A stretch of DNA of 64,000 nt from Cloacibacterium caeni (lineage in GTDB: Bacteria; Bacteroidota; Bacteroidia; Flavobacteriales; Weeksellaceae): assembly GCF_907163105.1 (NCBI RefSeq), contig NZ_OU015321.1, forward strand, positions 1,875,001-1,939,000, read 5' to 3'. Shown in pieces: positions 9,985 through 12,546 of this stretch. The notes beneath the pieces were generated by a model. It was not told the DNA's origin. It did not search any database and saw only the letters and a list, made by a program, of their open reading frames with translations. A program made the translations under genes and the position numbers. Every line of letters begins with the position of its first letter. Position 1 is the stretch's first letter.

Positions 9985-9997
9985 AGTTTTTTAATTT

Positions 9998-10066
9998 GAT
10001 TCCATAGGAATCTTATCTGTGTAGTTAATTTTTAATATTTTTATTGGGGGCGCTCCGTAGGAGCGC
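9998..10066 (+). repeat. Left arm: two REP-like palindromes
   Basis: Outer hairpin 9998-10012 (stem GATTCC/GGAATC, loop ATA) and inner hairpin 10050-10066 (stem GCGCTCC/GGAGCGC, loop GTA), separated by an AT-rich spacer. GTAG occurs at 10021-10024 and across the inner loop. The arm begins only 13 nt beyond the ruvA start codon, so it overlaps the ruvA upstream region. Confidence 0.75.
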
Positions 10067-10073
10067 TATCTTT

Positions 10074-10547
10074 TTATTCTAATTTATCATAAAATTCAAA
10101 CAAATATTTTTCATCATAATTGATATCAAATTTTTCTAGAAAATCTAAATATTCTTCTCTGAAACTTCTCTTTTGATGATGATTTTTTTGATTTAATATA
10201 TATTGAGTTACCGCATCTTTTTGACTTTTAGCATAAGAAAAAGCACCATAACTTTCTTGCCAAGCAAATTTACCAAAACTTAACCTTTTATCATTAATGA
10301 ATTTAGTAGATTCTGATTTAATAATTTTCACTAACTCAGGAATAGTTATTTTCAAATTTTTATAACTAAAAAACAAATGTAAATGATCTGGATTAGCATA
10401 AATAGCTATTAATTTTTGACCTTTATTGGTCAATATTCCTGTAATATATTTTTCTATTTCTTGTCTATTTTTATCTTCTATTAGCGTTTCTCTTTCTTTC
10501 GTAGCAAAAACCACTTGAATATAAATTTGCGAATAAGTATTGGGCAT
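10074..10547 (-). CDS. REP-associated tyrosine (IS200-like, Y1) transposase
   Basis: A 157-residue member of the Y1/HUH transposase superfamily that nicks single-stranded DNA through a tyrosine. The HUH motif is visible as NPDHLHLFF (His55, His57) and the probable catalytic tyrosine is Tyr116 in QYILNQKNHH. The closing residues KRSFREEYLDFLEKF are typical of RAYT-like domesticated transposases in Bacteroidota. All key residues are present, so the protein looks intact. It lies alone, without an IS605 tnpB partner, between REP-like palindromes. Function is inferred from the family; whether it still moves DNA is unknown. Confidence 0.88.
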   Translation of the reverse strand: MPNTYSQIYIQVVFATKERETLIEDKNRQEIEKYITGILTNKGQKLIAIYANPDHLHLFFSYKNLKITIPELVKIIKSESTKFINDKRLSFGKFAWQESYGAFSYAKSQKDAVTQYILNQKNHHQKRSFREEYLDFLEKFDINYDEKYLFEFYDKLE

Positions 10548-10576
10548 GTTTATGGTTTTAGTTTTTATTATTTTTA

Positions 10577-10646
10577 AGATAGCGCTCCTACGGAGCGCCC
10601 CTTAATTAGCAATATTCTTCTACACAGATAAGATTCCTACGGAATC
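10577..10646 (-). repeat. Right arm: two REP-like palindromes, inverted copy of left arm
   Basis: Inner hairpin at 10582-10598 and outer hairpin at 10632-10646 are the reverse complement of the left arm. The outer loop differs by one base between arms (ATA on the left, GTA-equivalent on the right). The AT spacers are less conserved than the hairpins, which suggests the hairpins are the functional parts. Confidence 0.75.
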
Positions 10647-10706
10647 TATAAATTTATCTTCAAATCTATTTAAAATAAACTTCAAAGATAATAAACTAAA
10701 TTTTAT

Positions 10707-10737
10707 TGTCATCATTCTTATATATTGTTTAATTTTG
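10707..10737 (+). promoter_or_regulatory. Promoter of the acyl-CoA synthetase gene
   Basis: TAATTTTG at 10730-10737 matches the -7 box TAnnTTTG; a weak -33 (ATTG) lies about 21 nt upstream. It covers the alternative TTG codon at 10735, which supports the ATG at 10774 as the true start. Confidence 0.5.
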
Positions 10738-10773
10738 GAGAAAATTCAATTCATAAAATCCCCATATATACCA

Positions 10774-12546
10774 ATGAAAAACCTACTTCAGCTTTTAGAA
10801 GAAAACACCAAAAAATTCCCACAAAAAACCGCTCTTAGCTTTAGAAACGGTGACGAAATAGAGATTCTTACCTGGAAAAAATTCTGGGCAATGGTTTGCC
10901 AAACTGCAAACGGATTGCATACTCTAGACGTAAAAAAAGGAGATTGTGTAGGTGTTTTTTCTCAAAATTCTAAAGATTGGATTATTTTTGACGTTGCCGT
11001 GCAAATGTTGGGGGCGATTACCATTCCCATTTACGCTACCAATAATTATGACCAAACCGAATATATCATCAAGCAAACCGAAATGCAACATATTTTGGTG
11101 GGAGACACGCCTCAACTTGAAATTCTGAAAAGTGCCGAAAAACATTTGGGTAAAAAATTACATATTTTCACTTCTCACGTCATAAAAGATGAAGCCGAAA
11201 ACATTACCTATTTCCCAGATTTCATCAAGCATTTTGCTACGGAAAGAAACCTCATCGAAATTACCGATGAAGATTTGGCAACCATTCTTTACACTTCTGG
11301 AACTACAGGAATTCCGAAAGGTGTGATGCTTACACATGGTGGTTTCAAAGCGGTAGTTGTGGCACACAAAGAATTTTTCAGTTTCGACAATTTGTACGAC
11401 ATGAAATCTTTGGCTTTTTTACCATTAAGTCACATTTTCGAAAGAAGCTGGTCTCTTTTCGTGCTTTCTCAAGGTGGTGAAGTTGCCATTTTAGAAGACC
11501 CAAAAAATATCTTGAACACGCTGAAACATGTTCACCCAACTGCAATGTGTGCCGTACCAAGATTCTACGAAAAAGTATATCAAACTTTAGTTAAAAAAAT
11601 AGAAGCTTCTTCGCCTACGAAACAAAAACTTTTCAAAAAAGCTTTGGAAGTAGGCGCTAAAGTATCTGATAAAAAAAGAACTGGCGCTAAAGTTCCGTTT
11701 GGTTTACAATTGCAGTTTAGTTTCTTTGACAAATTGGTTTTCAGAAAAATTAAAAATGAATTAGGCGGAAATCTTTCGTTTTTACCTTGTGGTGGAGCGA
11801 TGCTGAAAAAAGAAATTTCAGAATTTTTTGCAGCCATTGGTTTACCTGTGATTGTAGGATATGGACTTACCGAAACCACCGCTACAGTTACTGCACTTCC
11901 TCCGAAAAATTATGTGTACGGAAGCGTAGGAAAAGCTCTACCAGGTGTAGAAATTAAAATAGGAGCAGATGATGAAATCTTGGTAAAATACCAAGGTGTG
12001 ATGAAAGGATACTACAAAAATGAAGAGGAAACGGCTAAAGTTTTCACAGAAGATGGATATTTCAGAACGGGTGATGCTGGTAGAATAGACGAAGAAGGAA
12101 ATCTCTACATTACCGATAGAATTAAGGATTTAATGAAAACTTCTAACGGAAAATACATTGCACCACAAAGTATAGAAATCCCATTACAAAGCAATCCTTA
12201 TATTGCTCAAGCAATGGTAATTGCCGAAGGAAAACCTTATGTTTCTGCGGTGATTGTTCCAAATTTTGAAACCTTGATGGAAAAATACGAGGAATTTAAA
12301 AATTACCTTTCTCTGAATATTGAAGAGAAGAAAAAATTACTGGAAACGCCTTTCATTAAAGAAACTTTTGAAAAAGTAGTGAACGATATTCAAAAGGAAT
12401 TTGCAAGTTTTGAAAAAATTAAAAAATTCAAACTTTTACCAGAAGAATTTACCATAGAACGTGGAGAAATTACTCCAACCCTAAAAATAAAACGTAAAAT
12501 TATTCTAGAAAAATTCAAAGCCTTGATTGAAGGAATGTATGCGTAG
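10774..12546 (+). CDS. Long-chain fatty acid--CoA ligase (AMP-forming)
   Basis: A 590-residue AMP-binding synthetase that activates fatty acids through an acyl-adenylate to acyl-CoA. The P-loop motif YTSGTTGIPKG is at about residues 173-183. Further signatures are GYGLTETT in the middle, YFRTGDAG near 430 and a closing region with KIKRK before the C-terminus. The length matches FadD-like enzymes of Bacteroidota (about 590). I chose ATG 10774 (MKNLLQLLEE) because an upstream TTG frame start lies inside the likely promoter. It stands alone between the RAYT element and the frameshifted small gene. The substrate chain length cannot be read from the sequence. Confidence 0.93.
   Translation: MKNLLQLLEENTKKFPQKTALSFRNGDEIEILTWKKFWAMVCQTANGLHTLDVKKGDCVGVFSQNSKDWIIFDVAVQMLGAITIPIYATNNYDQTEYIIKQTEMQHILVGDTPQLEILKSAEKHLGKKLHIFTSHVIKDEAENITYFPDFIKHFATERNLIEITDEDLATILYTSGTTGIPKGVMLTHGGFKAVVVAHKEFFSFDNLYDMKSLAFLPLSHIFERSWSLFVLSQGGEVAILEDPKNILNTLKHVHPTAMCAVPRFYEKVYQTLVKKIEASSPTKQKLFKKALEVGAKVSDKKRTGAKVPFGLQLQFSFFDKLVFRKIKNELGGNLSFLPCGGAMLKKEISEFFAAIGLPVIVGYGLTETTATVTALPPKNYVYGSVGKALPGVEIKIGADDEILVKYQGVMKGYYKNEEETAKVFTEDGYFRTGDAGRIDEEGNLYITDRIKDLMKTSNGKYIAPQSIEIPLQSNPYIAQAMVIAEGKPYVSAVIVPNFETLMEKYEEFKNYLSLNIEEKKKLLETPFIKETFEKVVNDIQKEFASFEKIKKFKLLPEEFTIERGEITPTLKIKRKIILEKFKALIEGMYA

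Follow-up and report, generated by a model that had tools for sequence, protein, structure and literature searches.

A probable REPtron-like unit built on a subclass 1.2 Y1 transposase in Cloacibacterium caeni

The window analysed in this work is a stretch of 64,000 nucleotides from Cloacibacterium caeni (contig NZ_OU015321.1). It contains a 649-bp element at 9998-10646 in which a 157-codon Y1 transposase gene (minus strand), located between ruvA and an acyl-CoA synthetase gene, is enclosed by mirror-image arms of small hairpins. The locus raises the question of which kind of mobile system these arms and this gene belong to. The origin of repetitive extragenic palindromes (REPs) and their transposases from single-strand insertion sequences is unsettled. 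The reading that we consider likely is a REPtron-like unit with an IS200-class transposase (Y1, subclass 1.2) as its driving protein; such a unit comprises a transposase gene and the hairpin repeats that belong to it. The host genome (G000, 2.72 Mb, single contig), its sister genomes (G001 to G006), and the loci of homologous genes were compared to answer this question.

The transposase and its two-hairpin arms

The transposase gene was delimited at 10074..10547 (minus strand) by its open reading frame (ORF), profile matches, and a structure model. The protein matches Pfam Y1_Tnp with 81.6 bits (cut-off 23) and has both the DHLH motif and Y116, which places it in the Y1/HUH superfamily. The NCBIfam profile of IS200/IS605 transposases (NF033573) scores 64.6 bits, above its cut-off of 55, and the profile REP_Tyr_transpos (NF047646) scores 24.3 bits, far under its cut-off of 80. 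The predicted structure (pLDDT 89.9) has its best PDB matches in the TnpA proteins of ISDra2 and IS608 (best E 1.4e-8), and the REP-associated transposase 4er8 is a weaker match (E 6.6e-5).

The survey of Quentin et al. (2018; PMC6006769), in the portions used here, gives the signature of TnpA_Y1 subclass 1.2 as Y---Q--HH, DH[IV]H, WQ, and about 148 aa, and tables class 2 (TnpA_REP) with Y...NP tyrosine motifs. The protein at the ruvA site exhibits NPDHLH (L where the survey has I or V), FAWQ, YILNQKNHH, and a length of 157 aa. It is therefore classed as IS200-like and of subclass 1.2, by motif and NCBIfam score and not by a tree with published sequences. Residues W96 and Q97 are invariant in 32 aligned homologues; H55, H57, Y116, Q120, H123, and H124 are invariant too, but the loci had been selected by these motifs.

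The host genome has three full-length Y1 genes, all with the Y---Q--HH motif, and one fragment. The other two full-length proteins are 39% and 37% identical to the ruvA-site protein, and no near-identical full-length copy was found in G000. The fragment (L049, G000:C1:536493) is a Y1_Tnp match of 38 bits within an open frame of 1204 codons. A second Y---Q--HH lineage (L047 at G000:C1:2321424, L079, and L080) has more elaborate arms with several other palindromes on both sides (GTCGCTCTGCGAC, GTTCCGTAGGAAC, and ATGAATTTATTCAT types). A third (L046 at G000:C1:1557980, L081, and L084) has palindromes of the GCCAC...GTGGC type and is devoid of the main TAG tail.

Each arm of the element consists of two perfect small hairpins about 50 nt apart (arms at 9998-10073 and 10576-10646). 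The left arm is read on the plus strand. It begins with the outer hairpin GATTCC-ATA-GGAATC (9998..10012, 6 bp), which is followed by the tail motif TTATCTGTGTAG (10013..10024), present beside close homologues too. A spacer (10025..10049) separates this hairpin from the inner hairpin GCGCTCC-GTA-GGAGCGC (10050..10066, 7 bp), which is followed by the short tail TATCTTT, and the two loops are 53 nt apart. The right arm is read on the minus strand. Its inner hairpin (10582..10598) has the letters of the left inner hairpin as reverse complement and is followed there by TATCTT. The tail motif TTATCTGTGTAG lies at 10620..10631, and the outer hairpin GATTCC-GTA-GGAATC (10632..10646; GATTCC-TAC-GGAATC on the plus strand) has 7 bp when the next pair is included. 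The outer loop lies 49 nt from the inner loop in this arm.

The repeat finder pairs the outer arms 9998-10024 and 10620-10646 (27 nt, 96% complementary) and the inner arms 10047-10072 and 10576-10601 (26 nt, 100% complementary). Folded as single-stranded DNA, each arm is better than 200 of 200 dinucleotide shuffles on both strands (four tests, z -4.4 to -5.2). The first-pass annotation, made from the letters of the window, had described the coordinates, the sequences, and the intact Y1 transposase inside mirror-image two-hairpin arms correctly. Its distance of 13 nt from the ruvA ATG to the left arm is also right. Its distance of about 85 nt from the right arm to the next gene agrees with the TTG start of the ORF at 10735 (88 nt), and an ATG lies at 10774.

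The same annotation had named the element a RAYT (REP-associated tyrosine transposase) element and had likened the position of its GTAG words to known RAYT/REP systems. The profile scores, the fold, and the tyrosine motif do not bear out this name. The word GTGTAG lies at 10019-10024, after the left outer hairpin, with its GTAG about 8 nt from that hairpin, and CTACAC at 10620-10625 is its right counterpart. In a canonical REP, GT[AG]G is located at the foot of the hairpin on the 5' side (as given in part of PMC6006769). An ordinary RAYT/REPIN system, in which a class 2 TnpA_REP is accompanied by canonical REPs in inverted pairs, would account for dispersed small palindromes, a GTAG-like word, inverted copies that flank the gene, and the two gene-less inverted double arms reported below. 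We regard such a system as unlikely, since the REP_Tyr_transpos score stays far from its cut-off, the motif is Y---Q--HH instead of Y..NP, and GTAG is 3' of the hairpin and not at its 5' foot.

Hairpin pairs beside homologous genes

The loci of homologous genes were assembled from the best 80 of 549 confirmed candidates of a genome scan and 28 further loci from family genomes (108 in total). Six loci without an intact ORF with the tyrosine motif were dropped (L164, L179, L186, L233, L236, and L259) and eight genus loci were added, which gave 110 loci. They were found and filtered by the motif YI..Q..HH and so cannot test the conservation of that motif itself; near-duplicate loci were removed only in a recount with 91 loci. 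The best 80 of the 549 loci are mostly from Bacteroidota, with the best named homologues from Chryseobacterium and Flavobacterium. A few are from Desulfonema (complete genome), Jettenia, Poribacteria, Ignavibacteria, Cloacimonadota, and others, many of them metagenome-assembled genomes. A homologue is present in 204 of 296 family genomes, with 1 to 7 matches each.

In 92 of 110 loci, at least one of the 250-nt flanks of the gene has a hairpin with a ..TAG tail, and in 52 both flanks do. Control window pairs from the same loci, 700-1450 nt away from the gene, gave 25/277 and 1/277. Hairpins 48-54 nt apart were present on at least one flank in 80/110 loci and on both flanks in 27/110 (controls 9/270 and 0/270). 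After removal of proteins at least 90% identical, the hairpin with TAG tail was retained in 76/91 loci (39 on both sides; controls 20/223 and 1) and the pairs in 65/91 (23 on both flanks; controls 9/219 and 0). The distances between neighbouring hairpins up to 130 nt apart fall at 48-54 nt in 146 of 242 cases, and in 103 of 175 cases outside the closest group. A strict test (perfect stems of at least 6 bp in 200-nt flanks) gave hairpins on both flanks in 39/106 loci against 4/278 in controls, which is the conservative figure. The match between upstream and downstream arms in inverted orientation had a median of 17 against 9 for mismatched flanks, and 24/107 loci exceeded the control maximum of 22. 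The mismatched-flank control was abandoned as too harsh, given that homologous arms match across loci, and the distant windows of the same loci were used in its place.

Two hairpins per arm, which the first-pass annotation had called unusual, are thus common beside this protein family, and the arms are conserved beside homologues of the transposase. The repeat unit consists of a short hairpin with CC-NNN-GG at its top, a TAG-ended tail (here ATCTGTGTAG), and a variable stretch of about 20-25 nt. The hairpins recur head to tail every 48-54 nt because of this composition. Two units make one arm, and two converging arms enclose the gene.

The stems of these hairpins show compensatory changes. They were compared in rows hand-picked as distinct hairpins of close homologues (at least 4/5 pairs and a fitting tail), which biases the percentage of paired cells upward. 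The inner stems (15 rows) have 99.0% paired cells and a covariation of 0.397 against 0.167 in shuffles. The outer stems (25 rows) have 96.0% and 0.374 against 0.112. Both values were reached in 0/500 shuffles, and for both stems the covariation peaks at zero slide and drops sharply when the partner is shifted by 1-3 columns.

The hairpin tail motif follows the transposase tree. Tail classes require 9 changes on the tree against a shuffled mean of 39.5, and a number as low was reached in 0/200 shuffles; this test covers the 78 of 110 loci that fit one of six classes drawn after the tails had been seen, uses a quick tree with long-branch warnings, and treats near-copies as independent in its shuffles. 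The class of the host element, CTGTGTAG (29 loci), occupies one side of a branch with an SH-aLRT of 99. The classes TATTATAG (9 loci) and TGTCTATAG (2 loci) are also each on one side of a branch, and class E requires 2 changes.

Dispersed units and the ruvA site

The first-pass annotation had proposed a genome-wide search for both palindromes, and this search uncovered a related family of dispersed, paired hairpins. The two outcomes that the annotation had named as refuting it, a lack of further copies in the genome and a lack of arm conservation next to homologues, were both checked, and neither check refuted it. The hairpin core TCCGTAGGA has 69 matches in G000, some of them chance sites within genes, against 2 for the reversed control pattern. 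The inner palindrome with at most 2 mismatches occurs at 18 further sites, 17 of which have the paired variant GCGTTCC/GGAACGC (reversed control 2). Many core matches are paired about 49 nt apart in the order hairpin, tail (AATGTGTGTAG or AAGGTTTGTAG), variable sequence, second hairpin, and short tail. The loop-to-loop distance is 48-53 nt in 41 of 42 distinct genus arms and 45 nt in the remaining one; these arms were filtered from 91 motif contexts, with the second hairpin sought 34-69 nt off and sister copies of sites included. Hairpin-plus-tail hits number 28 in G000 (one being the element's own arm), 35 in G001, 21 in G002, and 0 in G006, which has neither the gene nor the repeats, and the control gave 0 in seven genomes. 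Gene-less double arms are located at 513518-513672 and 873837-873980 of G000.

A hairpin array of 10 units is located at G000:C1:648002-648452. The site with the matching left flank has 18 units in G001, 3 in G002, and 3 in G005. The right flank of this site follows without a gap in G000, G001, and G002, and in G005 it is about 500 nt further away. The array is a possible marker for strain typing. Two dispersed sites (s8 and s10) exhibit clear presence or absence among the sisters, and the flanks of several other sites are too rearranged. The repeated structural unit is shown to be a pair of hairpins that have one orientation and a preferred spacing; it is dispersed without the gene, varies between sisters, and is found with this protein lineage.

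Two further kinds of palindrome were observed in G000. A separate inverted pair with the same core (G000:C1:2284628-2284680 and 2197227-2197282) has GTAG directly 5' of one hairpin (GTAGAGATTCC...GGAATGAC) and, by its letters, looks like a canonical REP pair. Another palindrome (CGTTGGAATTTATTCCAACG / CCTTGGAATTTATTCCAAGG) adjoins dispersed arms at G000:C1:788850-788900 and near 1230690.

These counts bear on the possibility that a plain IS200/IS605-type insertion sequence (IS) moves as a whole 649-bp body, with the arms as its ends and the scattered hairpins as decayed relics. The IS200 family score, the IS200/IS605-like fold, and a site at which some sisters have the whole element and others lack it would fit such an IS. 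The single copy of the ruvA-site gene in each of G000 and G002 does not, while gene-less hairpin units are many, and neither do the 401 units of Desulfonema magnum described below. We judge this explanation quite improbable.

The dispersed hairpins might also be host elements (terminators, RNA stability sites, or protein sites) that the transposase merely inserts beside or carries along. On the plus strand, which is the strand opposite to ruvA, the two hairpins of the left arm match a terminator-like pattern (2 matches against a mean of 0.2 in shuffles), and G001 retains many hairpins without a close transposase. Hairpins with the YTCC/GGAR core lie outside ORFs of at least 80 aa in 57 of 67 cases, a count from fetched stretches that were chosen by this core, in which ORFs truncated at the edge of a stretch were left out and which carries no coding-density expectation. 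Set against this are the tail motif that follows the transposase tree, the arms beside the gene that far exceed control windows of the same loci, and G006, which lacks gene and repeats alike. The search of Rfam gave one match of 18.1 bits, far under its gathering score of 50, and no family at gathering score. Host elements are, in our estimate, a very improbable source of these hairpins.

The ruvA site was compared in six genomes; G003 was not alignable there, and G004 had no ruvA match. The gene lies upstream of ruvA in G000 and G002, and G001, G005, and G006 have an empty intergenic region. The box TATCTTTGAAG is located 25 nt upstream of the ruvA ATG in G001, G005, and G006 and 706 nt upstream in G000, beyond the element. 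An exact copy of the box is missing from G002, where TAnnTTTG is found at 707. The box resembles TAnnTTTG, the -7 promoter consensus of Bacteroidetes. Between this conserved upstream box and ruvA lies the element (region 9985-10750), and the transposase and ruvA are read in the same direction. Joint transcription of both genes is therefore possible on sequence grounds, and ruvA may depend on read-through. An effect of the element on neighbouring transcription is plausible from this arrangement and from the terminator-like pattern of the left-arm hairpins.

The association of repeat and gene was also sought in other genomes. The motif TTCCGTAGGAANNNNATSTGTGTAG was identified in 71 of 296 family genomes (reversed control 0). 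It is present in 36/38 genomes with a close homologue (E <=1e-64) and in 4/92 without any homologue (counts by eye; Fisher test), where the threshold was set after the list had been seen, the arms themselves make up many of the hits, and the genomes are related. The remaining 31 of the 71 positives are among 166 family genomes with weaker homologues. What this association mainly supports is that the arms are conserved, and dispersal to a lesser degree.

A second form of the unit was found in 9/15 genomes (control 0), with 401 hits in Desulfonema magnum, 15 in Epilithonimonas tenax, and at most 6 in seven others. G015, which has no homologue, has one hit. Desulfonema magnum (L174 and L282) has near-identical tandem hairpin arrays with a period of 52-53 bp and near-identical spacers, which could be mistaken for CRISPR-like repeats, and its homologue gene is flanked by two converging arrays.

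Proposed mechanism and relation to known systems

The TnpA of IS200/IS605 elements engages hairpins at the left and right ends that have the same orientation on one strand. By analogy with these left and right ends, a TnpA dimer would bind both hairpins of one arm, which lie on the same strand, in single-stranded form, and the spacing of about 50 nt may reflect this two-hairpin complex. Cutting and joining near the tails would then move or copy arms and let arrays grow. Guide sequences of IS200/IS605-type TnpA are treated in PMC8266576, in the portions used as background here. Mobilisation and cleavage by the transposase are what we infer from the arrangement of the repeats.

Several findings weigh against the REPtron-like reading. 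Neither a cut site nor a clean junction was found at the ruvA site, where the flanks of the empty sites are too different, nor at the 8 dispersed sites (of 14) aligned to G002, G005, and G006, where no exact insertion junction was found. No target duplication could be fixed at the ruvA site or the dispersed sites aligned. The exact inner palindrome occurs only twice in G000, both times in the element's own arms. The first-pass annotation had proposed that many dispersed, paired copies would show a family mobilised by this protein, which goes beyond the data: the dispersed copies have a sister palindrome, and G001 has 35 hits (18 in one array) with homologues only 37% identical. The repeats accordingly have survived the loss of a close relative of the gene or can do without one. 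The length of an array can also change by slippage or recombination.

The comparisons across loci and genomes also contribute points of this kind. No pair at 48-54 nt is present on either side in 30/110 loci, and the second form of the unit is absent from 3 of the 11 homologue-bearing genomes searched (L171, L209, and L212). The motif is retained in the 4/92 family genomes without homologue. Different palindromes, without this tail, accompany the remaining transposase lineages in the genus (L046, L047, L079, L080, L081, and L084), and tail classes B and D require 6 and 4 changes on the tree. Two of the five covariation measures are not clearly or not at all above shuffles: pairs changed on both sides (3 inner and 3 outer) were reached in 26 and 276 of 500 shuffles, and further pair types (5 inner and 8 outer) in 500 and 311 of 500.

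It is conceivable, at somewhat less than even chances, that subclass 1.2 has a mobile repeat of its own kind, a compressed two-hairpin IS200/IS605 element of about 70 nt without a gene that spreads singly and grows by itself into arrays. If so, this minimal element would stand, as an extant form, midway from single-strand insertion sequences to REP repeats, and the system would reach past Bacteroidota (Desulfonema and, by metagenome-assembled genomes, Jettenia and Poribacteria). Some of the small palindromes and tandem repeats that occur in Flavobacteriia genomes may be explained by this repeat. The spacing of about 50 nt, the lineage-linked tail, and the sisters with and without the gene make the question of mobilisation directly testable.

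The element at the ruvA site differs from RAYT/REP systems in two respects (protein score and placement of GTAG) and from an IS in one (no near-identical full copy in G000), which sets it apart as a new variant. The many dispersed related copies are as in RAYT/REP systems; the 5'-foot GT[AG]G is not, with the TAG tail 3' of the hairpin. Among open-licence papers, mostly at the level of titles and abstracts, none was found that describes this repeat or arms for subclass 1.2.

The element shares Y---Q--HH, DH.H, WQ, about 150 aa, and occurrence in Bacteroidota with subclass 1.2 as published (PMC6006769). It differs in its two-hairpin arms and dispersed arrays, given that the tabulation in that source has 'no' for REP structures in this subclass, and hairpin pairs at 48-54 nt accompany 80/110 motif-bearing loci in this work. 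The automatic search of the survey, as described there, required that a hairpin have GT[AG]G at its 5' foot. The arrangement reported here would escape such a search.

The other published systems are compared from the portions of their sources used here. REPtrons with class 2 TnpA_REP/RAYT proteins (PMC3733652, PMC6006769, and PMC8266576) are similar in their inverted flanking hairpins, dispersed intergenic copies, GTAG-like word, and conserved W-Q pair. They differ in their protein class, whereas GTAG 3' of the hairpin, head-to-tail pairs at about 50 nt, and long tandem arrays are exhibited here. Class 3 Y1 proteins (PMC6006769) have a class 1-like tyrosine motif with Q and high-copy REP-like repeats (about 600 in Solibacter), but their motif is Y----Q, their foot is CnGA, and they belong to other phyla. 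TIRYT elements with double palindromic terminal inverted repeats (PMC3733652) also combine a transposase with two-part palindromic inverted arms, but they have other protein groups and sequences, and their description includes no head-to-tail period of 50 nt.

The insertion sequences IS608 and ISDra2 share the transposase family and the fold with the element. The ends of IS200/IS605 insertion sequences have two hairpins that point the same way on a single strand, like the arms here. The element differs from them in that its arms are mirrored around the gene, gene-less units outnumber the gene, and G000 has no near-identical full copy. The repeat is thus IS-like in its geometry (same-strand hairpin pairs) and REP-like in its genomic behaviour (dispersed, gene-less, and in up to hundreds of copies). 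The protein of the system is of the IS200 class, and its mode of operation is that of a REPtron-like unit.
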